Position numbers and translations under genes: made by a program | Assembly: GCA_036172665.1 (NCBI GenBank) | Contig: CM069878.1 | Span: 21,090,501-21,154,500 of the forward strand | Direction: 5' to 3' | Length of the DNA: 64,000 bases | DNA from: Prosopocoilus inquinatus | Lineage: Eukaryota; Arthropoda; Insecta; Coleoptera; Lucanidae | In this document: piece by piece, positions 1 through 62,110 of the stretch | Layout of the letters: each line of letters starts with the position of its first letter | How positions within the stretch are numbered: position 1 is the stretch's first letter | The notes under the pieces: model-generated | The model's database searches: none | What the model was told of the DNA's origin: nothing | Seen by the model: only the letters and a program-made list of their open reading frames with translations

Positions 1-164
1 GCATGGGGGACTCATTAGGAGCAAATCCCGCTTCAATTTGTCTATCCTACTGCAATGTTAGGTCAAAAAGCGATAGTAAGATGTCGCTATTTTATATGTT
101 CATCATTCTTACATCGCATTTGCGAATAAATTGGGCAAGTCGTTTTTGGTCTGCAGTGGGAATG

Positions 165-229
165 TCGAGCTACGTTTCTGCTGAAGAAGCCCCAAGCAGG
201 GCTGAAACAGCTGTCCAGAGGCTGCTCGA
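165..229 (+). ncRNA. Type I hammerhead ribozyme, copy 1 (intact core)
   Basis: Helix I has two parts: GUUUCUG (174-180) pairs with CAGAGGC (216-222), including two G-U pairs. An internal loop follows (UAC 171-173 opposite U 223), then outer helix UCGAGC (165-170) with GCUCGA (224-229). The core CUGAAGA is at 181-187. Helix II is AGCCC (188-192) with GGGCU (199-203) and a 6-nt loop. GAAA is at 204-207. Helix III is the self-complementary ACAGCUGU (207-214), with essentially no loop, as in the short-helix-III hammerheads known from retrozymes and Penelope elements that work best as dimers. C215 follows U214, giving the classical GUC cleavage site between 215 and 216. All invariant nucleotides are present. 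The internal loop in helix I is where tertiary contacts with loop II occur in natural hammerheads. Confidence 0.88.
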
Positions 230-476
230 GGTTCTCACTGCAATCAAAAACGATTTGCAAAAAATTTTTCTAAAATCTGTCATTATGCTTTGACAGCAAG
301 CATGGCCGCCTTGCATGGAGGACTCATTATTAGCAAATCCCGCTTCAATTTGTCTATCCTACTGCAATGTTAGGTCAAAAAGCGATAGTAAGATGTCGCT
401 ATTTTATATGTTCATCATTCTTACATCGCAATTGCGAATAAATTGGGCAAGTCGTTTTTGGTCTGCAGTGGGAATG

Positions 477-541
477 TCGAGCTACGTTTCTGCTGAAGAA
501 GCCCCAAGCAGGGCTGAAGCAGCTGTCCAGAGGCTGCTCGA
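477..541 (+). ncRNA. Type I hammerhead ribozyme, copy 2 (core variant GAAG)
   Basis: Same fold as copy 1, shifted by 312: CUGAAGA at 493-499, cleavage predicted after C527. It differs in the core at one base: position 519 (A15.1) is G instead of A, so the closing pair of helix III becomes a G-U wobble. A15.1-U16.1 is strongly conserved in active hammerheads, so this copy is probably slow or inactive. Helices I and II are unchanged. Confidence 0.8.
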
Positions 542-668
542 GGTTCTCACTGCAATCAAAAACGATTTGCAAAAAATTTTTCTAATAAGAATTTTCATAA
601 GACACCTTTTGTACAACATGACAGCAGGTAACGTTACTTAATTTCATTCGATTAAATATTTAATAGAC

Positions 669-770
669 GTTATAAATAGCTTATAGAAAAATTTTGTGCA
701 AATCGTTTTTGATTGCAATGTCAGGTCAAAAAGCGGTCGTAAGATGTCGCTATTTTATCTGTTATAAATA
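669..770. mobile_element. 82-bp miniature insertion made of the two ends of the retrozyme unit, with 10-bp target duplication
   Basis: The direct repeat GTTATAAATA (669-678 and 761-770) brackets an 82-base insert at 679-760. After six extra bases, the insert opens with AGAAAAATTTTGTGC, the reverse complement of one part of the 312-bp unit. It switches to direct orientation at about 718 and closes with GATGTCGCTATTTTAT. The larger insertion at 57238-58165 has the same inverted-then-direct layout and nearly the same outer ends. The layout resembles 5'-inverted products of target-primed reverse transcription (twin priming). There is no ribozyme in this miniature. Confidence 0.75.
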
Positions 771-844: not shown

Positions 845-2110
845 GAATAGTGCCTTCTACAAAGACATTGGCAGCTAAAAACGAATATTTTTGTGATAAA
901 TTTTAAAGATACTTTCTATAGCAATGTACATATTTTTTTTTTTTAATTTCTTTAGCAATCAATCAGTGGCTCTCAACACTTCACTATCTTTAATTTTTTT
1001 TAAATATGGTTAAGTCCAAAAATGGTACTAAATATTGTCACTCGTTTTGACCAGTTAAGTTTGGCACGTTATATCGGGACCACTATCCATAATTTATACA
1101 GGATAAAGTAGGCTTTATATTTTGGACATTGAAACAGTGACTGGCATTAAGATAAATAATAAGGAGGAACTAAGAAGGCGAATATTAGATTCTTACCAAC
1201 ATGTTTCCCGAATTCATGTTCGACACGCTAGACGAGACATATAGGATTAAGAACGAATGTGTGTCTTGAAAACAATGGAGAACATTTCGAATATTTACTT
1301 TAATTTATTTAGTTCACAAATTCATGTTCTTCTTCTATAATTTTTATTCATCTTATTTATTTTAATCTTCTAATTTAATATGTTTGTGTGTTTTAACCAC
1401 CTAATATCATTTAGTCAATATTTATTGATTTTTCTTCTTCCGACAACTAAATGTTAGTTGCTAATACTTAACAAATAAAAAAAGTCGTTAGGAATAAATT
1501 TACTTTTTAAGAAAAACATGACGATACTCTATCAGTTTTTTGTCATATTCTAACTTTACTTGAAAAAAGGTATTAAGTATTATACTCACTGAAATCACCA
1601 GAAAAAAATGCTATCGACTACAATAATAAAAAGATAAGAAAAACCAAAAATTTAAAATTGTGTATTAAATAAAATTTTCAAATAAAATCTGAATTATTTA
1701 AGCTTCAAATTAAGATCAACAATTAAGTGTATATATCATTAAAATCAAAAGAAAAAATGCTATCGATAAGAACAATAAAAAAACATAAGTTGTATTTAAA
1801 AAATCGAAACTGATGATGGTCGTGGAAAGACGAAACATTTGACTTCCATTCTATTACTCCTATTCGTAGCAGAATTAAAAAGTGCCTGTCGAAAGTTAAA
1901 TCAGAATTTCAAGAGATACAGAGAGAAAATGAAAATCGATTCTTTTTACATTTTTATTAATATCTCAAGAAGAAATAATAAAAAAATCATTATGTTAATG
2001 AATACGAGTTAGACATTGATTCGTTCGATTTCTTCCATTTAACCATATTTGTATCTCTTACGTTTTAGGAGATCCCTTCAGTGCACACCCAATTTGAAAC
2101 AGTCGGTATA
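845..2110 (+). mobile_element. Decayed mariner-like (DUF4817-type) transposon, right part and 3' end
   Basis: A diverged inverted copy lies at 32955-34125, and a third, end-only copy at 56680-56990. All three share the run ending in the 'aaaatcgaaactgatgat' segment, followed by a region rich in AAAATGC and AAAGAGATA words. The right end near 2090-2110 reads CACCCAATTTGAAACAG, matching the opposite end of the second copy. The section 845-985 is also present, reversed, at 10090-10250, so it may be a shared terminal module. Coding remnants are listed separately. Superfamily assignment rests on the C-terminal peptide only. Confidence 0.55.
1138..1303 (+). pseudogene. C-terminal remnant of a mariner-like (DUF4817 family) transposase
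   Basis: Translation gives KEELRRRILDSYQ followed by HVSRIHVRHARRDI. After a frame change and in-frame stops comes CLENNGEHFEYLL and a stop at 1301-1303. The pattern 'E-x-LR-x-RI ... C-L-x-x-N-G-x-H-F-E-x-L-L-stop' is the usual C-terminus of a very common insect mariner-like transposase family. The second copy (33785-34060, minus) encodes the equivalent CLENSG peptide. No catalytic triad remains here. The function is dead. Confidence 0.55.
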
Positions 2111-9904: not shown

Positions 9905-10085
9905 TTAAACAGCGACATCCTAGGATCGCTTTTTGACCTAACATTGCAGTAGGATTGACAAATTGAAGTCAGTTTGCTACATAATAAGTCATCTCATGCA
10001 AGGCGGCAATGCTCGCTGTCAAAGCGTAATGAAGGTTTTCATAAAATTTATTGCAAATCGTTTTTTATTGATCCAATCATGTTAA
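9905..10085 (-). repeat. Diverged partial retrozyme unit (no ribozyme)
   Basis: On the minus strand it carries the non-ribozyme half of the 312-bp unit: AAAAACGATTTGCAA, TTTGACAGCGAGCAT, CCGCCTTGCATG, CTGCAATGTTAGGTC, then GATGTCGCTGTTTAAAC. It stops at the same end as other copies (GATGTCGCTATTTTATATG elsewhere). The hammerhead section is absent. It is clearly older than the arrays at 1 and 57 kb. Confidence 0.75.
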
Positions 10086-22799: not shown

Positions 22800-24620
22800 T
22801 AAATTTAAGCTGGAATTGTACAACTAGACTTTAAGTGTCAGTGTGAGATGACCATTAAAACACTTGCTGAGAATCATGAAATTTACCTGGTAAGGGATGA
22901 TAAACTAAATATTTATTAGTACATGATATGACACGATGATAGTTTTCGTAAAAATTTGCAAAAATTTCTTACAAACTGCCAGAGACATGTTACCATAGTA
23001 AATGTTTATTGATTAATTCCACACATATCTGTCACTTTTTCGCCAGATAAATTGATACAAAAAATATCACTGTGTGTCAAACAGGCCTTCCAAATATTAT
23101 GGAATTATTCTGTCTTTTATTTACGCAGAACAGTGTACGTTCGCTTACGCGTTCGTTGATGAAATCGGGTCATAAAGAAGATACATTTGGATGCATTTAA
23201 TTCCGCATTGCGTATGATTTCCTTGGCAGACTTCGGATAAGTATCCAGGCAAAATTCGTCCGATAAGCCGGCACTAATTTCAATCCAAAATGTATTCCCC
23301 GTATTGATCTCCCTTTTACATGCGCATATAAAACCGCACGAAATGACCAAGTTTCTAAATTTAGCCCGGCACTAAATCCTTTCGAACCACATCCAGATTT
23401 CGTATTAAAACTTTTTAGCGAGCATTCTTCGTAAACAGCTCGCGATCGTTATGTAAAGTACTAACTGTTCACGGCCCCGATCAATAAGTTCGTGGTTTTT
23501 TTCAGTTAATGGGCCATGGATTCGATAATTTACGCCGCTGAAATGTTCGAATGCATCCAGTTTAGTCTTTTTGTTTTGCTTTTGGTCTGAAACTATACAT
23601 CACTAAATGATTATGATGCATTGAAAAAATCCACCCGGACTATTCCAATCGACACCAAATTAAAGTTTCCCGTTAATATTAAGTTATTTCTTCTTTTTCT
23701 TCAGTTTCTTTTCCTTTTCTTCAAACAGAACGTCTTCCTTTAACTCTTTCCCGTTTTTTCAAATAAAGGGGTTTCTAAAGTACCTACGTCATGTGCAGGA
23801 AAGTAATTGGAACGTCTTGTTTTAAGTTAAAAATGCCATTCTAAATCTGTTATATTTTAGAACGCATTTCGTCCTGGACATATGCGGAGGCGATGTTCTG
23901 CGGTGGCAACCCAGTGCTAAAAATAGCTTGCCCTGTCGATGAAGACGTAACAGAATATCTGCATTTTCGAAACGGCTCCAACTCACCAATTCAATTTGCG
24001 CTTTCGGGTTTGTTTCTAACACTAACTAGCATTTTAAAAATAATTCACTTCTTGTTGCACGTAAAACGATCTCGTGTTCTGCCTATTCCTTGAAGCATTT
24101 CCTGTACACATTTCACGAACACTGAGCACTGTTAACCAGATGTGTACGGTGACCGTCTCTTGAAACGAAAAGCCCGCGTTCGCTCCATACTTCTTTACAT
24201 TCCATACGACTTACACACTATGGGAAGTAAGGAAGTACGGAACTGGCGAAGGCCCCTGACGATAGATAGAAATGGCGTGTCCGCGATATTCCGGGGAAGA
24301 AACGGCACTCTTGGAACTTGGAAGTCGACTGAATGCACCATGCAACCTAATGTTACTGTTAAGTTGCCTCTTAGGTAGCTGAATTCTAAAAATGGCCCCG
24401 TTCACGCCATTGGTTCCACCGCATAGGAATACAATCTTACCCAACCCCTCTTCCCAAATTTGTCTTTTCTTAAAATACATCTGCGGCTAGCTGAACCTCC
24501 CGGCCGGCTACGCTGTGGCCGGGTAATTATAGACTACCATGTGGTAACACATGTGCATTTCTTACAAGAATCCTTCGTGAACTTACGTTCTGCTCGCTTC
24601 AACCAAGCAGGAGATGCCGA
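22800..24620. other. Unassigned, with GC-richer blocks 23110-23560 and 23850-24620
   Basis: No domain recognised in the short open frames (e.g. 23117-23350 minus, 24142-24378 plus). Composition is less AT-rich than the transposon-dense parts, and no repeat partner in the window was noticed for these blocks. They are candidates for host conserved non-coding sequence or unknown exons. Confidence 0.3.
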
Positions 24621-30719: not shown

Positions 30720-32950
30720 GACTACGTAAACATGTTCCGCTCATCGCACAATCGATATGCCTCCCTTCCATTCGATTGTCCGCCTGCTCGTAATAGTGGT
30801 TGCTACTACTAATCCACACAATTATATTTTATTGGGGGAAACGTCTCTTTCTTGGATTACTGTACAACGATGCTCAACAAATATGATATTCTGTCCGGTT
30901 GTAGATTAAAAACTTACAATTTTCATAGGACAAGAGTCAACTGCTATTTTAGATGATACTATTTAACAATTTCTTAGCCCTTACGCTGAAGTTCAAAACT
31001 GTTGTAATTGTATCAAGAAAATTAACTGAATAGAGAATTACTTTAAAGAAAATAGAACGTGTTCGATTTTCAAACCAAAAATTTCTTTTTCCAAATATTA
31101 CAGAAATTGAGTTGAGTCCTTACAAGAAAAAGTACAGATGGCATTGTGATATAAAATTATCTGGAAAATGTAGAATATTTCACTTATTTTATGAATTTAT
31201 GGTACTGGTTGTTGCTCTGAATGCTTGTGAGATTTTTGATCATTCGTCATTTCGTTCGGTTTACGCATCATTTTCGTACCCTTCCTCTAAACAATCCTCT
31301 CGGTGTGCAGGCTACAGTCTACAAGGTTGAATTTCCCAGTTGACTATAGAAACACCGGCGCATCTGAGCCACATCAGTAAAAGAGGGTCGACTCGCCGCC
31401 CCTGGGCGCTACTACACTTTGCATCTTCATCCGTTTATTTTACACGTCCGGAGTGTTTGTGTAAACAAATTTGGCGGATAAACCGACCGCTACGTATAAG
31501 GGCTATTTTTACCTCTGAAATAAAATATACACGCGCGTCTCTCCGGCGGCCAAAAATGAATTCGCACCCCGCTTCATTCGGTAGCGTTAACGCACTGAAT
31601 TCTTCTTGCGCGAATGAAACGCGATTTGAATTTAAAAATAAATACAAGCCGCTGTGATTAAGAGAAGCCAACTCGAAGTAGACACGACGCTAATTTTATT
31701 TTCAACTTAACGCAACAAAATCCGATGTGATGATGATTAAAAAAATCAATTTAAATTTTCGTACCACACACCATATTCTTGATATGGAAACGCAGCGGAA
31801 GCTAAAAGCTTTTCTCTTTAAATACGCGAACCGTTTTCTTTGAGGAAAACGTTTTTAAGCGCGTTTCAGTTCCAAAGTGGAAGTTGGAAACAACACGGCG
31901 ATTGTTGCTGCGCCAGATTGATGAGGACGCCATTGTGTAAACGTCCTAAGAAATAATTTCGAACGACGAAAGTAATTCAGACAAAAACTGCGCAGCCAGA
32001 TAAGCCGACTGTCTACCTCCTCTGAAAATTCCTTGTGTTAAACCAGATGCTTTCAAACGTGTTTCATTTTGAAATCCACTCCGGAAGTTACTTTTGTTAA
32101 TAATACCGTATGATTTTTTAAATTTTAGATAAAGGAGGCTCCGGAAAGCAAAACGTATAGTACTAAATACCTCCATAAATAAAAATTTACTGTAGAATTT
32201 CTTAGTTCTGATAATAGATTTGTCATTTCCTCTTTTCCTGTCCATACTATCTTCCTGTACGACAAAATTTAATTGTACTTTGCTTTTCATGGCTAACCTT
32301 TACTTAAAATTTATAAAATCATATGTTATAATTAAAGGATCGAGGAAAATAGCCCGTCCAGTCTCCCAGATACCGATTACGGATCGTAACACCCCCGGTG
32401 TAGCGCAGATCTGCATCGTTGGATTGCCCGGTTTAACAGAGACGCGCGTTGTTGAATATTCTCAGGTATTCGAAATTCGAATAGGGAAGAAAATACTAAC
32501 AGTTGTCAGCTATTAATCGTTATTAAAATTAATTATTAAATAACGTTCCAAATTTTCGTTCGTTCGTTCGTTTCGATTTGCCGTGAGAATGTCTTGTCTT
32601 TTAAAGCGAGAAAATGATCTTTCAACTTAACAGGTTGTGAGAGACGCTTTCTCTAGGTAAATATTTACGGAGAGACTGAGCAATCAAATAAATGTCGAAT
32701 CGTCAAAATCAAAATTAATGAGACGCAGAATTCGATCGTAGAATCCCCGTATCTATCGGAAATGCAGCGAGAAATCAATCCCCTCCGCGCGCGGAATACA
32801 ACGCCTTTGAGTTTGGACCCTCAGATTCGAGGCCTTAGTTATAATACTAAAGCTTGACTTCATTTTAAAAATCCGACTTGTTTATGTATAAAAAATTAAA
32901 TAAATAAAAAAATTTAACACAGAAAAATTCGAGCCAGATTATATTAAATA
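30720..32950. other. Unassigned, probably host sequence, GC-richer at 31330-31680
   Basis: 31330-31680 contains many CpGs and open frames on both strands (105 and 78 codons) without a recognisable domain. 32550-32570 is a short CGTT microsatellite. 30885-30960 is the repeat fragment described at 22640. I call no gene. Confidence 0.3.
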
Positions 32951-32954
32951 TACC

Positions 32955-34125
32955 GGCTGTTTCAAATTGAGTGTGCACTTCTAAACCGTAAGAGATACAA
33001 AAATTTGGTTAAATGGAAGAAAAGTTGCACGAATCCATGTCTGACTCGTATTCATTAACAGAATGATTTTTTTAAATTATTTCTTCTTGAGATATTAATT
33101 AAAACGTAAAAAAATCGATTTTCTTTTTCTCTCTGTATCTCTTTTATTATACATAATTTTGAAATTTTGTTTTAACTTTCTACAGGCACTTTTTGATTCT
33201 GCTTCGAATAGGGGTAAGAGAATTGAAGTCAAGCGTTTCGTCTTTCTACGACAATCATCAGTTTCGATTTTTTAAATACAACTTTTTTCCTTTTATTGTT
33301 CTATTCGATAGCATTTTTTCTCCTGATATATATCACACTTAATAGTTGATATTAATTTGAAGCTTAAATAATTCAGATTTTATTTGAAAATTTTATTTAA
33401 TACATAATTTCAAATTTTTGGTGCATTTTCTTATCTTTTTCTTATTCCAGTCGATAGCATTTTTTCTTTGTGATTTCAGTGAGTATAATAGTTAATACCT
33501 TTTTTCAAGTAAAAAAACTGATACAGTTTCATCATGTTTTTCTTAATAAGTGAATTACTTCCTAACTATTTTTTTTAATTTGTCAAGTATTTAGAACTAA
33601 CATTCAATTGTCGGAAGAGGAAAAATCAATAAATATTAACTGAATGATATTAGATGATTAACACAAACCAAATAAACAGCAGTATAAACATCTTAAATTA
33701 CAAGAACAAAATAAATAACTTGAATAAAAATTATAGAAGAAAAACATAAATTTGTTAAATAAATAAAGTGAAATAAATAAATTAAAGTAAATCCTCAAAA
33801 TGTCTTCCACTGTTTTCAAGACACACAATCGTTCTTAAAACTATGTGTTGTCTAGCGTATGGAATATGAATTCGCATTTCTGCAAGAACCCGATATTCGC
33901 TTTCTTAGTTCCTCCTTGTTATTTATGTTAATGCTAGTCACTGTTTCAATGTCCAAAATACAAAGCCTACTTTATCCTGTTTAAATTAAATTACGCAGAG
34001 TCGTTCCGATATAACGTGCCAAACTTCAACTGGTAATTTACCTCGTCAAAACGAGTGATAAATTTAGTACCATTTTTGGACTTAACTATGTTTAAAAATA
34101 ATTAAAGATAGTGAAGTGTTTAAAG
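32955..34125 (-). mobile_element. Second copy of the decayed mariner-like element
   Basis: Inverted, diverged copy of 960-2110. The outer end reads GGCTGTTTCAAATTGAGTGT, and shared words include GAAGAAAAGTTGCACGAATC and ACTTCACTATCTTTAATT (reverse). It has only scattered small differences and indels over its whole length. Confidence 0.65.
33785..34060 (-). pseudogene. Mariner-like transposase C-terminal remnant, copy 2
   Basis: On the minus strand: a GTT-type block (RYIGTTL), EYRVLAEMRIHIPYARQHIV and CLENSGRHFE, in more than one frame. This corresponds to the copy at 1138-1303 and ends in the same family motif. Several stops and frame changes; not functional. Confidence 0.5.
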
Positions 34126-34854
34126 CCACTAAGGCCCAGTTTTTCCATCTCAGTTTAACTTTAAGCTCCGCTTTATTCCCGGAGTAACAATTGTGAGGAA
34201 AGTGTTCCCCGAAATAGCGATTAAAATATGTGGTTTAAGCATGAAGAAGTGCCATCATATTATAACAATAACACTAGAAAATGATTTAACTAGATAGTTA
34301 ATTCAATAAATAAAATGCGAAAGAATTTTGAGTTGCTACCCAAACTTCCGTCTGATATAACTATTTTTTACGCCAGTATACAGGGTGGGACAATTCGGTG
34401 GATAGCACCTGTATTAATGCAGATTTTTAAAATCTGTTTTCGTTGTTACTTACCTACCATAGGTAGATGCATAACTCAAAATTAGTTACAATTATACAGA
34501 GTGTTCCGTGTGGCTGTGCCAGTCCAGTTATGTTTTTTTTTTTAATGGAACATACTGTATATTATGGTTTATTTCGATTCGTCTTTAAGAGTAGACAAAT
34601 TTATTATAAGGATATTATGTACCTAAATCCAATGGTTTTTGAGATATTGACATTTCAATATAAAAAAAGTGGTATTATTTGATGTTTTACAGATTAGATG
34701 TTTATTAAAATTTGGCCTTTAAATTTTTACAGTAACATTACATAACCTCTATGGAACAGAAAACAATTTCCATCTCGAACATATTCCAATTATTTTACAC
34801 AGGGTGATTCATAACTCCGATGCTTATTTTACTCGGTTAGTTTAAACGGAACAA

Positions 34855-39337: not shown

Positions 39338-39378
39338 GTAGATACGTATTTCGGCAGCTAAGCTGCCATCTTCAGTAC
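39338..39378 (-). ncRNA. Penelope-type hammerhead-like motif, copy B
   Basis: Minus strand: GUA - CUGAAGA - U - GGCAGC UUA GCUGCC - GAAA - UACGUA - U C - UAC. The GUA/UAC pair closes helix I, helix II is 6 bp, and AUACGUAU is a self-complementary helix III. One extra U separates CUGAAGA from helix II, which is not canonical. Compared with the copies at 48204 and 53905, the helix I closing triplet has changed on both sides (CUA/UAG to GUA/UAC), i.e. compensatory change. Confidence 0.55.
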
Positions 39379-48194: not shown

Positions 48195-48548
48195 GTTTAA
48201 AAGCTAAATACGTATTTCGGCAGCTGTGCTGCCATCTTCAGTAGATGCATTTTTCTTGATCACAAGAAAAGTGACTGTGCCATGCCTATCGCTACCTTAT
48301 ATACTAATTCGTTCCGCTCCAATGAAGCGATCTGTCTAATGCGAGCGTCTCACCGGATTACGTCAACCAAGTCAAGCAAACGGAACCTGCCAAAGGCCCA
48401 TGATCAGTGTTCATTAAATCTCTCTTATTTTTGTACATGAAAATAGTTTCAAACCCGTCTAATTCCCTGTTGCTTGACGTTGCTTTTACTAACCTAAGAT
48501 TGTTTAAATCTATGATGGAATGGAAATGGAATTTATGAAATATCTTGC
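48195..48548 (-). mobile_element. Penelope-like element fragment, 3' part of ORF and terminal region
   Basis: Minus-strand translation of 48520-48370 gives IDLNNLRLVKATSSNRELDG, FETIFMYKNKRDLMNTDHGP and a stop. This is the C-terminus of a Penelope polyprotein downstream of the GIY-YIG endonuclease (the family ends in E-x-x-x-I-x-K...N-x-D-x-G-P-x-x-S). Downstream (minus) comes the non-coding terminal region, ending at the hammerhead-like motif (48204-48244). The opposite-oriented copy at 53546-53965 aligns over the same section. Confidence 0.75.
48204..48244 (-). ncRNA. Penelope-type hammerhead-like motif, copy A
   Basis: Minus strand: CUA - CUGAAGA - U - GGCAGC ACA GCUGCC - GAAA - UACGUA - U U - UAG. 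Helix I closes with CUA/UAG, then after an internal loop AAAA/UUUU can pair further out. Helix II is 6 bp, and AUACGUAU is the palindromic helix III. The extra U between CUGAAGA and helix II departs from the consensus, so activity is uncertain. Location at the end of a Penelope element is where this retroelement group is known to carry hammerheads. Confidence 0.6.
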
Positions 48549-49559: not shown

Positions 49560-50400
49560 GGAATCGAGAAATTGGTGGGACTGAAAATTGGACCATTTAG
49601 AAGTTCGCAATAAGGAATTTGTTACGCGGGACAGAAGGTGCATATGAAGTATGTATTGGCGAAATCAAGAAACCTATAGAGTTGACAAACGATGCCACTA
49701 TAGAGGAGCGAGATACTTACAACGTATTATATAAGGCACGGGACAAAGCTGATCGCAGTGCTAGTCAAATTATAGTAAAGACTGTTGAGTCCAAAGTAAT
49801 GGCACTGTTAGTTGCATGTGAATCTGCTCGAGATATGTGGACGAAACTTCATGCAGTATTCGAAAAGCAGACGAAACAGGCCTCACATGCTGTTCAGTCA
49901 GAATTTTTCGGTTTTAGTATGATTTCCGGCGATGATATGGTGACGCATATTGCTCGGTTTTAATGTCTGGTTTTACGTATACAACTTAATGTAAACCCAG
50001 ATGAATCATCGTTGATTGCCAGACAGTTATGAAAACTTGCGTCAGTCTTGGTGGGCAAAACCTGAAGAATGTCAGACACTTAAGAATTTGATTGAAATGT
50101 TGACTTCAGATGAAAAACGACGATTTCAACGTTCGGTGAAGCAAGACGAATTAGTTGCGCTGATGGCAACCAAAACACGAAGAAAAGAAGGTAACTCAGG
50201 AGTTACTGTTGGTGCATATTGTAAGTCAACAAAGAAATTTACTAAGTTACCACATGAGAAAGAAAAAGAAAAGAAGTTTAAATGTTTTGGCTGCGGCGGC
50301 GAAGGTCACATCAAGCGAAATTGTCCAAATTACAAAAACAATGTCAAAGTAATGTGTCAAATTATGGAGGTGATCAAGCATTTATCAGTGAAATTATTAA
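49560..50400 (+). pseudogene. gag: Copia gag (broken)
   Basis: 49619-49963 encodes a gag segment (SKVMALLVACESARDMWTKL, then FEKQTKQASHAVQSEFF), the UBN2-type gag region of Copia elements. The frame stops at 49963. It resumes at about 50016 (SYENLRQSWW) and includes a CCHC zinc knuckle, CFGCGGEGHIKRNC (C-x2-C-x4-H-x4-C), near 50282-50325 for RNA packaging. The expected N-terminal start is damaged: sequence just upstream of 49619 is in another frame. Confidence 0.82.
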
Positions 50401-53120
50401 TGCAGAGAGTGAAAATGATTTGTGGATCGTGGATTCTAGAGCAACAGATCACATAACAAATCAATTCGGTTGGTATTCGTCGTTTGAATATTTTGCAACA
50501 CCTATAAAAATTCATATTGGTGACAAATACACGATGGATGCACTTGGAAAAGGGACCATTCAATTTGAATCATCTGTTGATGGAAAATGGATACGCTGTC
50601 ACATGGAAAATGTTCTTTTTGTGCCGGCTGCCCGGAGAAATCTATTTTCTGTTATGTCTGCCTTAGATAAGGGCCTGTCATTCAATTTATCAAAAGTAGA
50701 ATGTGAATTTGTGAAACATGGTGTTGTGAAAGCGCGTGGTGTGCGTTATGGCCAGCTATTCAAGATGGAAATTCGAATAATGAAATTTGAGCAACCTTAT
50801 GTCCTCGAAGCAAATCTTATGTCAAAGCAAACATTACAACTTTGGCATAAGCGGCTGGGTCACCAGAATAAGCGTTACGTTCAAAAGTTTCTGAAAGCAC
50901 GTGAATTTGATGATGGCGAATTTGAGTGCATGTGTTCAGGGAAAACAAACTCGAAATAACTTTCAATTACGTCAACAACGTGCAATGGAATCAGGTGAAG
51001 TGATTCACGCTGATTTGTGCGGACCAATGGAATGTACATCAATTGGTGGTGCAAAGTTCTTCCTGTGTTTTACATGTGATTATTCAAAATTTCGCATGGT
51101 GTACTTCTTGAAAGAAAAGTCAGAGACTGCTTCAAAGAGTCTAGAAGTGCTACAAATAGTAAAGAACAATTGTGGACGTACATTAAGAGTATTCCAATGT
51201 GATGGAGGACGAGAATTTAACAACTTTGAAGTGCAAAATTTTATGAAATCGAACGGAGTAAGCTTTGCTGTTACCAATCCTTACACTCCGGAGCAAAGTG
51301 GTTGTGTTGAACGCACGAATAGGACAGTGGTCGAACAGGCTCGTACGATGTTGTTAGCTAAGTCTCTGCCTAAAATATTATGGGCGGAAGCTGTAAACAC
51401 CGCTGTACACGTCCTCAATCATACGGGTCCAAGTCATGAAACTGAAAAGACTCCATACGAACTCTTCATGGGGAAGACGACGGTACTATTTCCAGAAGAA
51501 ATTGACAATGTTTCAGGAGCTGATAAAGAAGATACTGCGACTGACTCAGAAACTGAGAGTAGACATTCTTCAGAATCTTCAACTGAAATTTTGAAGACTG
51601 AATCTTCCGATAGAAAACTAAGAGATCGACGTAATGTTAAGCCACCTGAACGCTTGATAGAGACGATGTTAGCTGAAATTGATGAACCAAGAAGTTATGC
51701 AGAAGCCATAAACTCTGCAGAATGTCAAAAATGGAAAAGAGCTATGGAAGAGGAAATGACGTCGTTGAAGGAGAATTCAACGTGGACTTTAGTTGAGTTA
51801 CCAACAAGTCGTAAGTCTGTATCAAATCGCTGGGTATTTCGAATCAAGCGCAGCCTGATGGTCAAATTAGTCGTTACAAAGCACGACTAGTTGTTCGTGG
51901 ATATAGTCAGAAAATAGGCATTGATTACAATGAAACCTTCAGCCCTGTTGCTCGATTTGACACAATTCGATCTGTTTTAAGTGTTTCAGCTGATGAGCAT
52001 TTAGAACTGGCACAATTTGATGTCAAATCAGCTTTCTTAAATGGAGTCCTTAAAGAAGAAATATTTATGGATCAGCCTGAAGGATTCGAAGACGGTACCG
52101 ACCGAGTTTCCAAACTCCAGAAAAGTTTATACGGATTAAAGCAGTCGCCAAGGTGTTGGAATCGGCACTTCAAAGACGTGCTGATGAATTTTGGACTTTG
52201 TGAATGTAAGGCGGATCCACGCTTATTTTATCGAGAAGGTCAACGAAACAAGTTGATAGTGATACTTTATGTCGATAACGGTTTAGTGGCAGCATTAAGA
52301 AAGCGTGATATTGAAGAATTCCTGCAGCAACTAAAAGCAGAATTCAGCATTACAATTGAGCCGGTTGGTTACTTTCTGAATATACAGATTACACGTAAAG
52401 ATGGTGTTATAAAAATTAATCAAGAAAGGATATTGATACTGACCAGTACTTTCGACCAGGGGAAGCGACCGTTCTTGAATTAACTTCTGCTCCATATCGA
52501 GAAGCAGTCGGTTGCTTGATGTATCTGGCTGTTGCTACCAGGCCAGATATCGCATTTGCGATAAGCTATGCTTCACAATTTTTAGAGAAACCAGAAAAGA
52601 AGCACTGGAATTTAGTGAAAAGAATTCTGGCTTAAGGTTCCACTCAATTGGGCATTGAGTACCAAGCAAGTACTGAAAACAATAGGCTCAAGATCTACAG
52701 TGATGCTGACTTCGCAAGTGATCCTGCAACTCGACGCTCAGTAAGCGGAATGATTTCCAAATACCGTGGAGGAGCCATCACCTGGGCAAGCAAGCGGCAA
52801 CAGTGCGTATCCTTGTCAACAACAGAAGCAGAATACGTGGCTGTGAGCGAGGCAACAAGAGAAACAAATTGCCCCGTTAAGATATGTTCCTGTTCTTCTA
52901 GTGGACAATGCGAGTGCTATCAAATTAGCAAAGAACCCGGAATTTCATAAACGTTCAAAACATATAGATGTGCGATTTCATTACGTTTGAGAACAAATTC
53001 AGGCGGGTTAGTTGACAATCGAACATGTACCTGGTGATAAACAGGCTGCAGATATTCTTACCAAACCTGTTCCGCGTTTTCAATTTGTTCGTATGCGCTC
53101 ATTAATAGGTACGGTATAGG
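50282..53120 (+). pseudogene. pol: Copia pol: protease, integrase, reverse transcriptase, RNase H (broken)
   Basis: The protease reads WIVDSRATDHI near 50420, where the usual D-S-G active site has Arg for Gly. The GAG pre-integrase domain LWHKRLGHQNKRYVQKF is near 50840. The integrase core, near 51000-51460, has HADLCGP, QCDGGREF and CVERTNRTVVEQAR (D, D, E present). The reverse transcriptase starts near 51820, is frame-shifted near 51860, and continues through FSPVARFDTIRS and QFDVKSAFLNG. The catalytic box is YVDN instead of YVDD (52270). A further frameshift near 52430 and a stop at 52633 precede RNase H (IYSDADFASDP, SLSTTEAEYVA). The tail ADILTKPVPRFQFV ends near 53100. Mutated protease and RT motifs plus frame breaks make it dead. 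Confidence 0.9.
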
Positions 53121-53545: not shown

Positions 53546-53965
53546 GTTTCAAAGAGCAGTTAGCTCATTGAAAGTACAATAGAATTGAAAATTCCCATAT
53601 TGCGCAACATATTTTTGGCACCAGTCATAAAATAGATTTAAACAATCTTAGGTTAGTAAAAGCAACGTCAAGCAACAGGGAATTAGACGGGTTTGAAACT
53701 ATTTTCATATACAAAAATAAGAGAGATTTAATGAACACCGATCATGGGCCTTTGGGATCAGGTTCCGTGTTGCTTGACTTGGTTGACGCAATCCGGTGAG
53801 ACGCTCGCTTTAGACAGCTCGCTTCATTGGAGCGGAACGAATTAGTATATAAGGTAGCGATAGGCCCATGCCAGTCACTTCTCTTGTGATCAAGAAGAAG
53901 GCATCTACTGAAGATGACAGCATATCTGCTTAAATACGTATTTAGTTTTTAAAAAAAAACTTTTT
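53546..53965 (+). mobile_element. Penelope-like element fragment with GIY-YIG C-terminal part and hammerhead-like end
   Basis: The + strand encodes RFKEQLAH, a stop, KYNRIENSHIAQHIFGTSHK, IDLNNLRLVKATSSNRELDG, then ETIFIYKNKRDLMNTDHGPL and LLDLVDAIR before a stop near 53800. The first part (R-F-K-E-H ... H-I-A-x-H) is the end of the GIY-YIG endonuclease domain that distinguishes Penelope elements. A non-coding terminal region (53800-53900) and a degenerate hammerhead-like motif (53905-53945) follow. Inverted relative to the copy at 48195-48548. Confidence 0.8.
53905..53945 (+). ncRNA. Penelope-type hammerhead-like motif, copy C (degenerate)
   Basis: CUA - CUGAAGA - U - GACAGC AUA UCUGCU - UAAA - UACGUA - U U - UAG. 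Helix I closure and palindromic helix III are kept, but helix II is weakened and the first G of GAAA is U, so it should be inactive. Confidence 0.5.
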
Positions 53966-56990: not shown

Positions 56991-57279
56991 TAATTTTTTT
57001 TGAAAAACTGAATAACTACTACTTTCGCCCTCTAGCTACTTTATAACAAATTAGCCGTAGTCGTTGAATAGGAACTTTATATCAGCTTAAAATTACCTTT
57101 CAAACGAGCCGAAGTTTGGTTATTTCTTATAAAGAGTACAGAAGCTATGATATTTTCTAAAGTAAATAATTCAACTGTTTTCTCTATCAAAGCTGTAGCT
57201 TATTCTGAGACTTTCTCTAATAAAGTAAATATTTATTAGAAAAATTTTGTGCAAATTGTTTTTGATTGCAGTGAGAACC

Positions 57280-57344
57280 TCGAGCAGCCTCTGGACAGCT
57301 GTTTCAGCCCTGCTTGGGGCTTCTTCAGCAGAAACGTAGCTCGA
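57280..57344 (-). ncRNA. Type I hammerhead ribozyme, copy 3 (intact)
   Basis: Same sequence as copy 1 on the minus strand: CUGAAGA is the complement of 57322-57328, helices I-III are unchanged, and the GUC cleavage site lies between 57294 and 57293. Confidence 0.87.
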
Positions 57345-57591
57345 CATTCCCACTGCAGACCAAAAACGACTTGCCCAATTTATTCGCAAATGCGATGTAA
57401 GAATGATGAACATATAAAATAGCGACATCTTACTATCGCTTTTTGACCTAACATTGCAGTAGGATAGACAAATTGAAGCGAGATTTGCTCCTAATGAGTC
57501 CCCCATGCAAGGCGGCCATGCTTGCTGTCACAGCATAATGAAAGATTTTAGAAAAATTTTGTGCAAATTGTTTTTGATTGCAGTGAGAACC

Positions 57592-57656
57592 TCGAGCAGC
57601 CTCTGGACAGCTGTTTCAGCCCTGCTTGGGGCTTCTTCAGCAGAAACGTAGCTCGA
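57592..57656 (-). ncRNA. Type I hammerhead ribozyme, copy 4 (intact)
   Basis: Exactly 312 bases from copy 3, same orientation, all core nucleotides present. Cleavage predicted between 57606 and 57605, so copies 3 and 4 delimit one 312-nt monomer. Confidence 0.87.
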
Positions 57657-57919
57657 CATTCCCACTGCAGACCAAAAACGACTTGCCCAAAAACAATTTG
57701 CACAAAATTTTTTTAAAATCTTTCATTATGCTGTGACAGCAAGCATGGCCGCCTTGCATGGGGGACTCATTAGGAGCAAATCCCGCTTCAATTTGTCTAT
57801 CCTACTGCAATGTTAGGACAAAAAGCGATAGTAAGATGTCGCTATTTTATATGTTCATCATTCTTACATCGCATTTGCGAATAAATTGGGCAAGTCGTTT
57901 TTGGTCTGCAGTGGGAATG

Positions 57920-57984
57920 TCGAGCTACGTTTCTGCTGAAGAAGCCCCAAGCAGGGCTGAAACAGCTGTCCAGAGGCTGCTCGA
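57920..57984 (+). ncRNA. Type I hammerhead ribozyme, copy 5 (intact)
   Basis: Plus-strand copy in the right arm. CUGAAGA is at 57936-57942 and cleavage is predicted between 57970 and 57971. The following unit is truncated at 58165 before its ribozyme. Confidence 0.87.
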
Positions 57985-58239
57985 GGTTCTCACTGCAATC
58001 AAAAACAATTTGCACAAAATTTTTCTAAAATCTTTCATTATGCTGTGACAGCAAGCATGGCCGCCTTGCATGGGGGACTCATTAGGAGCAAATCCCGCTT
58101 CAATTTGTCTATCCTACTGCAATGTTAGGTCAAAAAGCGATAGTAAGATGTCGCTATTTTATATGTAAATATTTATTGATGACCCTATTGATTGCGCCCC
58201 CTTGCGCTCAACTCAGATACTTAAAAATATTTTGAATTT

Positions 58240-60574: not shown

Positions 60575-62110
60575 TTCAAAATATTTTTGCCGATAAGACT
60601 TGTTCAAGGCCTATCTACATTTGAGAACAGATGAAGAAAGTAGCATCATCCAGACCATCTCCACACATTGAGGAACGTATCGAATGAATAGGTTAAGTTT
60701 TGAAATAAAAACGGCACCAGCAGATTTTAACCGGGTAATGGACCAAATTCTGAAGGGATTGCAGAAGACTATTGCCTATTTCGATTATATTCTTGTCCAC
60801 GGGGTAACAAAAGAAGAATGCAAAAGAAATCTTTTTGCTTGTCTCCAGAGACTGCATAAATATGACTTGCACCTTAATAAAAATAAATGTACATATTTTC
60901 AGACCCAGATTGAGTATCTAGGATACACGACCCAACAGAACAAAATATCTAAATCGCCATCAAAAGTAGAAGCAATTATTAATATGCCCCGTCCGAAGAA
61001 CGTACCAGAATTACGCCGATTCTTGGGAATGGTAACATATTATTCTCGCTTCTTACCCGACGTTTCAACCATTACAGCACCACTAAGAACATTACTTAGA
61101 AAACATCAAAAGTATTTTTGGACAGCTAAATGTGAGTCAGCTTTTATTAAACTCAAAAATGAAATAGTAAGTGATAGAGTCGTAATGCCATTTAATCCAA
61201 ATCAACCTGTTTTGCTCACAACAGATGCAAGTCCAACAGGAATTGCGGCAGTACTATCGCATGTCATCAATGATACAGAACAACCAATTGCTTTTGCTTC
61301 TCGTTCCCTAACCAATGCTAAACAAAATTATTCACAACTTAACCGTGAAGCGCTAGCAATTGTGTTTGGAACAGATTATTTTTTTGATTACCTTTTTGGA
61401 CGTCATTTTACATTAACAGATAACGAGCCTTTGGCAAGAATTTTTCATCCAAAGGCCAAATCACCAAAAATGACTTCAGCTCGACTTTTACCATATGCAT
61501 ATTTCGTGGCTGGATTCAACTACACAGTAAAATTCAAGAAGGGCGCTGACAATCAAAATGTGGATTGTTTGTCAAGAGCTCCAATCAAACATTACACACA
61601 CATTGGCATTACGAAAATGAAGTAATTAGCACGTCGCTACTGTACCTGGAAAAATATTGACAAAGACATAAAAAAACTTGTAAAATCTTGTGCAGATTGT
61701 TTATCAATTAAACACAATCCAGCAAAGGCACCTGTTCATCATTGGGATATTCCTGATAACAATTGGGACCGGATTCACATCGATTATGCTGGACCCTTTC
61801 AAGGATTTTATTTTCTTTTGCTGGTCGATGCTAAATCTCGTTGGGCAGAAATCGGAATACTTCTCGATGCACCGAATACAACAAAAACTATTACCTTACT
61901 GAACAGGATGTTTGCAACTCACGGGTTTCCTCTTGTTATTGTATCGAATAATGCATCTATTTTCACAAGTGAACCATTTAGAAATTATTGTCGCAAAAAT
62001 GGCATAAAAAAAATTCATTACTCCAGGACATCCAGCAACAAACGGTCTTGCCGAAAGACATGTTCAACCTTTAAAAGAACGCTTAAAGGCAATGTCAAAT
62101 GAAGTCTTTT
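60575..62110 (+). pseudogene. pol: Gypsy pol: reverse transcriptase, RNase H and integrase (5' truncated, broken)
   Basis: The reverse transcriptase begins mid-domain near 60575 (AYLHLRTDEESS), has a stop, then resumes at 60684 with FEIKTAPADFNRVMDQILKG. The catalytic box reads YFDYI where Gypsy elements have Y-x-D-D-I, so it is mutated. IEYLGY and LRRFLGMVTYYSRF follow, then RNase H (LLTTDASPTGIAAVL, IAFASRSLT, LNREALAIVF, and ADNQNVDCLSR), ending at 61625. The integrase zinc-finger remnant (CADCLSIKH) and core follow: IHIDYAGPF (first Asp), then SNNASIF where D is expected (Asn instead), and a frame shift near 62015. No LTRs or gag found. It starts directly after a foldback arm, indicating truncation. 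Confidence 0.9.

Follow-up and report, generated by a model that had tools for sequence, protein, structure and literature searches.

Introduction

Metazoan non-LTR retrozymes, as described in PMC7229834, carry a type I hammerhead ribozyme in a low-G+C unit of about 300 bp, occur as dimers to multimers and are bordered by target site duplications (TSDs) of more than 4 bp. In 2020 the enzyme that mobilises them and the template were still open, Penelope-like elements (PLEs) being named in the same paper as a strong candidate. Its main text presents retrozymes as tandem arrays and names neither fixed insertion ends nor inverted arms. Going by their descriptions (PMC7229834; PMC2837043), the hammerheads of newt, axolotl, schistosome and cave cricket also sit within repeats that are a few hundred base pairs long.

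Among PLEs, the Anolis Poseidon element was reported in 2024 to use, in vitro, two adjacent internal start sites on its RNA which match the tail, and to cut and extend both strands of the target, with a preference for AT-rich DNA (PMC11167929). Copies with an inverted arm and a tail have been described for Adineta PLEs, and according to that account it was still open in 2013 how inverted PLE copies tailed on one side arise (PMC3846280).

Here we analyse a stretch of 64,000 nucleotides (the window) from contig CM069878.1 of the Prosopocoilus inquinatus assembly GCA_036172665.1, together with copies of its hammerhead-bearing repeat elsewhere in the genome. The element and the retrozymes of PMC7229834 are alike in type I hammerhead, unit size, low G+C, multimers, TSDs and co-resident PLEs. 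Unlike the newt, axolotl, schistosome and cave-cricket repeats, its sampled copies are dispersed insertions with TSDs. As a retrozyme the element belongs to a known kind; as far as our searches show, what is new is its head-to-head insertion from two sites, of which we found no description for animal retrozymes in the parts of the open-licence PMC literature that were consulted.

The hammerhead ribozyme and its repeat unit

The first-pass annotation of the window had reported five type I hammerhead copies in two loci. All five were upheld by a search of the window with a 35-nt core pattern (at most 3 mismatches), which found none in shuffled sequences:

165..229, plus strand: type I hammerhead, intact core (181-187, 204-207, 213-215; pattern match 181-215), predicted cleavage between 215 and 216
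477..541, plus strand: second hammerhead, one core change (GAAG; pattern match 493-527), predicted cleavage between 527 and 528
57280..57344, minus strand: hammerhead, intact core by the core pattern (match 57294-57328)
57592..57656, minus strand: hammerhead, intact core by the core pattern (match 57606-57640), 312 bp from the copy at 57280..57344
57920..57984, plus strand: hammerhead, intact core by the core pattern (match 57936-57970), in the opposite arm of insertion 2

Direct reading and the pattern together give the type I layout, with core CUGANGA / GAAA / NUH, three helices and an open helix I. The core is intact in four of the five copies, as had been claimed, the single change being GAAG instead of GAAA in the copy at 493. 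Helix II (5 bp, AGCCC/GGGCU) and helix I (7 bp, internal loop UAC/U, 6 bp) also agree with the annotation. Helix III had been read as a loop-less palindrome, ACAGCUGU, and this we would redraw: preferable is a helix III of two pairs, A-U and C-G, capped with the tetraloop AGCU, itself a palindrome. Cervera and de la Pena (PMC7229834) liken a 2-bp stem with tetraloop to invertebrate hammerheads. The axolotl hammerhead, as presented there, likewise combines a short helix III with a palindromic tetraloop. Within arrays the ribozymes are spaced by 312 bp, which is the repeat length, as the annotation held; cleavage at the predicted sites would thus release RNA of unit length.

The Rfam covariance model Hammerhead_1 (RF00163) aligned with the motif from end to end (model positions 1-45 of 45; 23.8 bits, E 3.4e-4, when only the 86 bases 160-245 were given), at a score below the gathering cut-off of 34. 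In the whole-window Rfam search no hammerhead reached its gathering threshold, and HH9 scored 14.5 bits (E 3.4) on 1-1200. Among 48 distinct ribozyme copies, helix changes comprise 30 one-sided pair-keeping, 19 pair-breaking and 0 two-sided ones, a variation too small for a covariation test.

The unit has a G+C content of 43%. An open frame of 115-118 aa runs through it (294-641, plus strand; 57171-57527, minus strand), 312 being divisible by three. Comparison of the 115-aa frame (294-641) with the protein collection gave 2 candidates, none of them at E 0.01, and we therefore claim no coding role for the unit. Assignment to the PLEs by an ORF with reverse transcriptase and GIY-YIG domains fails, the unit being only 312 bp long. 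The exact 27-nt core had 0 matches in viral_contigs, and insertion 2 had none among plasmids (near mode).

Several other features of the window and genome were recorded. A second hammerhead-like motif, similar to CTGATGATGGTCGTGGAAAGACGAAAC, is found at 1810-1840 (plus), 33261 (minus) and 56914 (minus); it differs slightly among these three copies of a dispersed repeat, of which those at 965-2110 and 32949-34130 are 81% alike. A mir-1 precursor lies at 24176-24249, and its score exceeds the Rfam cut-off on either strand (minus 62.6 bits, plus 53.4 bits). The stretches 49601-52483 and 60672-62102 hold decayed retrotransposon frames, which we take from their translations to be copia- and gypsy-like. 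Elsewhere in the genome, locus L082 (C6:31279764-31281104) is a nuclear COX1 copy, open for 527 codons from stop to stop in the invertebrate mitochondrial code; the COX1 family has 42 genome matches in all. Together with the mir-1 match, this copy is a hint of the insect origin that the annotation had given.

Copies in the window

The 312-bp tandem repeat reported at the start of the window is indeed there, with 1.9 copies and 98% matches over 1-585. It is part of a larger structure, and mapping on the unit gave the following features:

1..585, plus strand: insertion 1 (L009), window part of the plus arm, ending at unit position 273 (repeat and unit mapping)
583..595: right TSD of insertion 1, 13 bp, TAATAAGAATTTT, the left copy lying outside the window (flank comparison)
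678..763: miniature ribozyme-less insertion, its minus arm covering unit positions 278-236 and its plus arm 51-100
9907..10070, minus strand: old copy lacking the ribozyme, 84% alike with the unit, of which it spans positions 241 to 92 (unit mapping)
57225..57237: left TSD of insertion 2, GTAAATATTTATT (flank comparison)
57236..58166: insertion 2, head-to-head arms, minus arm 57236-57690 and plus arm 57688-58166
58165..58177: right TSD of insertion 2, GTAAATATTTATT (flank comparison)

Insertion 1 begins 1,149 bases to the left of the window and as a whole runs from window position -1149 to 585, with a minus arm of 995 nt, a plus arm of 745 nt and three ribozyme cores per arm. The array at 1-585 is a portion of its right arm; the tandem array is thus only part of the insertion unit. 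Insertion 2 has its outer ends at unit position 273 (minus arm) and 99 (plus arm). The miniature insertion shows the same usual two outer ends, near unit positions 100 and 275, and a TSD, GTTATAAATA, whose two copies (669-678, 761-770) overlap the ends as called. The old copy at 9907..10070 has one end of the type near position 100 and no detected second arm.

Architecture of the insertions

The 650-Mb assembly (173 contigs) contains 18,212 matches to the 35-nt core with at most 3 mismatches (9,086 forward, 9,126 reverse), and the reversed pattern, used as control, has 0; the figure counts ribozyme cores, not insertions. For architecture, 60 loci plus the window were mapped on the 312-nt unit. 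Loci L009-L048 came from a match list favouring long matches; on contig C1 the first 20 intact-core clusters were taken as L049-L068, chosen solely for the intact core. Of 77 rows, 11 were excluded (10 cut by the locus end, and one miniature copy already counted via L009), leaving 66 complete insertions.

The usual form consists of two arms, minus then plus, with their 3' sides outward, that is, head-to-head. In 48 of the 66 insertions, which we call canonical, one outer end falls at unit positions 92-111 (u100-type) and the other at 268-293 (u275-type). No insertion of the 66 has two u100 ends and one has two u275 ends. The sample chosen for intact cores on C1 gives 17 canonical among 23 complete insertions. 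Ribozyme cores less than 2 kb apart, among the 100 matches listed on C1, form 19 minus-plus, 0 plus-minus, 6 minus-minus and 3 plus-plus pairs. The two fixed ends, as putative start sites of copying, lie 137/175 nt apart on the unit. Comparison of the two start regions with each other gave a score of 30, reached by 32 of 500 shuffles, which is not significant.

The remaining 18 insertions are non-canonical as detected. In L061 and L039 a second arm, too short for calling, was seen by eye; the others are old, nested, broken or unexplained. L040:1545-2510 has two u275-type ends, and over the length displayed its left flank is the reverse complement of its right one; this insertion therefore seems to be centred in a larger genomic palindrome.

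Flanking sequences were compared in 47 of the 48 canonical insertions, one being without flank. In 42 of the 47 the two flanks share a run of 9 or more nucleotides lying no further than 14 nt from the called ends, against 33 of 1,082 mismatched flank pairs, and in 34 of the 47 this run is 12 or 13 nt long. The target duplications are rich in A+T (87%, compared with 66% in the flanks). The sampled copies are, then, dispersed insertions with 12-13-bp TSDs, head-to-head arms and two fixed ends.

These observations bear on the identity of the element. The annotation had called it retrozyme-like, and this part stands: a type I motif in a 312-bp unit, within the range of 150-450-bp repeats, arms of one to several units, G+C below 50% and TSDs longer than 4 bp all agree with metazoan non-LTR retrozymes. 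We read the element as non-autonomous, mobile and of the retrozyme kind. The tandem, satellite-like layout also ascribed to it does not describe the sampled copies. A satellite DNA expanded via unequal crossing-over, with the ribozyme as a passenger, would account for the head-to-tail 312-bp arrays; since single insertions are dispersed, with matched 12-13-bp TSDs and fixed ends, that reading is refuted for the canonical copies sampled, and we give it next to no credence overall.

The junction between the arms was studied in the 45 canonical insertions that have exactly two segments, the set from which the arm figures below are also taken. The arms have 1-5 letters in common at the junction in 22 of the 45. 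In L044 and L055, on different contigs, the inner junction joins unit positions 51 and 108 in both, where some 11 letters overlap; this may mark a hot spot of joining.

In twin priming by LINE-1, two target 3' ends prime on the RNA and leave inverted halves joined at a microhomology. Inverted arms, short junction homologies and target duplications are all products of LINE twin priming. The inversions make up a minority of LINE insertions, and the second priming site varies. An ordinary LINE might have made the present copies, starting the first strand at one site while the second target strand primed internally, any resemblance to PLEs being coincidental. The junction letters speak for it. Here, however, the inverted form is the usual one in the sample (48 of 66), both ends are fixed, arms may exceed one unit, and PLEs of the same genome have a matching architecture; we consider a LINE origin improbable.

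What was copied

The 90 arms of the 45 insertions cross the predicted cut site between 215 and 216 a total of 150 times. None of the 90 inner ends falls at 213-219, where about 2 would be expected if they were even, and the inner ends are spread evenly along the unit (KS p 0.43). The crossings and the lack of inner ends at the cut site show that the copied RNA was not a cleaved linear monomer.

Both arms derive from one RNA source, since variant letters agree between them far more often than in permutations. This was tested on 44 insertions of minus-plus pattern only, with the window copy excluded. For variant letters also present in at least two other insertions, the arms agree at 44 of 68 (permutation mean 12%, maximum 35% of 300 permutations); for all variant letters they agree at 90 of 249 (permutation mean 4%, maximum 13.5%). 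The finding of equal unit lengths across both arms at 15 of 21 loci (permutation p 0.024) is weak and is set aside.

A circular template would be the simplest account. The predicted circular fold has -112 kcal/mol, whereas 100 mononucleotide shuffles average -72, and in 48 of 65 distinct units both start sites lie within one open loop of the predicted fold. The shared loop by itself is modest evidence, since 26 of 312 equally spaced position pairs also share a loop in the consensus fold.

The template might instead be a linear multimeric transcript of genomic arrays, ribozyme activity being incidental. Crossing of the cut site needs merely uncleaved or religated RNA, and for the Anolis PLE hammerhead mutations are reported to be without effect on insertion in vitro (PMC11167929). 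Intact cores, found in 200 of 217 ribozyme copies, fit a circle and a linear multimer alike. On the other side, the 32 arms of the C1 sample have a median length of only 204 nt, so that most copies of this type are too short to serve as template for long arrays; even so, an arm of more than 3 units is present in 14 of the 45 insertions, all from the sample favouring long matches. The inner ends, moreover, show no preferred RNA 5' end. We regard a linear template as unlikely, if still deserving attention, and a circular one as the better account.

The retrozyme arms are not mirror images: their inner ends lie within 15 nt of each other in 3 of 45 insertions, where 4.5 are expected by chance. 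This bears on self-priming, in which one cDNA folds back and copies itself into a palindrome, a route suggested for the PLEs of Adineta with an antisense RNA as template (PMC3846280). Near-perfect PLE palindromes of the beetle genome, given below, favour it. The retrozyme arms are unmirrored at the junction, and fold-back alone does not predict two different fixed outer ends; for the retrozyme, self-priming is already unlikely, and as a general explanation we rate it as very improbable.

Penelope-like elements of the same genome

Where GIY-YIG sequences lie less than 12 kb apart, they form 47 minus-plus, 0 plus-minus and 1 minus-minus pairs (150 scored of 2,232 candidates). A minimal-hammerhead pattern adjoining these PLEs has 3,534 genome matches (control 0); its neighbours less than 4 kb apart, among 100 matches listed, are 21 minus-plus, 0 plus-minus and 1 minus-minus. 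The Rfam search of a PLE 3' region gave no hammerhead match up to E 5. In the window, relics with the PLE-type minimal hammerhead CTGAAGATGGCAGC..GCTGCCGAAATACGTAT lie at 39342-39375 (minus), 48208-48241 (minus) and 53908-53941 (plus), the last being degraded.

Short PLE copies were picked for two close opposite matches and so inform about ends and flanks, not about the inverted share. In PLE family 1, all nine have exactly one short end and one about 39 nt longer, the extra piece being a predicted stem-loop, and the nine copies have flank strings of 11-15 nt in common. Family 2 adds little on flanks, since its five copies have strings of 13, 10, 10, 6 and 4 nt and 182 mismatched PLE pairs also reach 10.

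The arms of these PLEs are often matched. Eight of nine short copies of family 1 are near-perfect palindromes, and arms are unequal in three of five copies of family 2. L073, L074, L075, L076, L078 and L081 are PLE palindromes of about 1.1-1.7 kb, 99-100% alike and with nearly symmetric arms. Open-frame lengths agree within 5 aa in 14 of 46 GIY-YIG pairs (1.1 expected, maximum 6 in 5,000 permutations); the count took 46 of the 47 minus-plus pairs, the omitted one having frames of 406 and 788 aa, which are not symmetric. Frames of equal length might also result from one stop passed on to the two arms. Matched arms in PLEs and unmatched arms in the retrozyme would reflect a template with an end and one without.

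The PLEs and the retrozyme are alike in head-to-head arms, in two distinct fixed 3' ends and in TSD length class (12-13 nt modal in the retrozyme, 11-15 nt in nine copies of family 1). Their sequences are another matter: the similarity of the unit to family 1 is not significant (360 of 1,000 shuffles score as high), and in four comparisons of end with end the score was equalled by 233 to 1,000 of 1,000 shuffles, so the link between the two is one of architecture. Family 2, by eye, has CTATTTTA in common with the unit near one end.

With the published GIY-YIG-clade PLEs, as far as described in PMC3846280 and PMC11167929, the retrozyme compares well in its head-to-head form, a one-sided tail of 30-40 nt, targets rich in A+T, short TSDs, two start sites of reverse transcription and a nearby hammerhead. 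It differs from PLEs in lacking an ORF of their kind, in its canonical rather than minimal hammerhead, in start sites 137/175 nt apart, and in arms that stop at even, unrelated positions.

Discussion

We think it probable that this animal retrozyme moves by way of a circular RNA, which PLE machinery copies by extending the two strands of the cut target, starting at two fixed internal sites. Judging from the known biology of hammerheads, transcripts would cleave themselves, and a host RNA ligase would close the product into a 312-nt circle. A protein of the Penelope-like kind, combining reverse transcriptase with GIY-YIG endonuclease, would then make a staggered cut in AT-rich DNA, and both target 3' ends would prime on the same circular RNA, at about positions 100 and 275. 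In the sampled copies the arms run inward over variable distances, up to several turns, passing through the cut site. The two cDNAs would finally be linked to each other inside the insertion, in about half of the cases at a few common letters.

A broader reading, to which we would give an even chance, is that animal retrozymes are obligate clients of PLE machinery. One ribonucleoprotein would copy the small circular RNA from both target 3' ends of a staggered cut, with the two sites facing one open loop. A retrozyme insertion would consist of two rolling-circle cDNAs, head-to-head and each with a length of its own. The autonomous PLE, whose RNA has an end, would give matched arms instead. Two points are counted against the use of PLE machinery by the retrozyme proposed above: the retrozyme sites lie 137/175 nt apart and those of the PLE about 39 nt, and PLE copies are often nearly symmetric while retrozyme copies are not.

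The mechanism predicts two start sites, extension of both strands and a stagger of 12-13 nt. An insertion signature common to the retrozyme and the PLEs suggests how such elements jump, and the retrozyme, apparently copied from an endless template, uncouples copy length from the two start events. If animal retrozymes are indeed obligate clients of PLEs, this would explain both how they move and why PLEs carry an inverted copy and a tail on one side.
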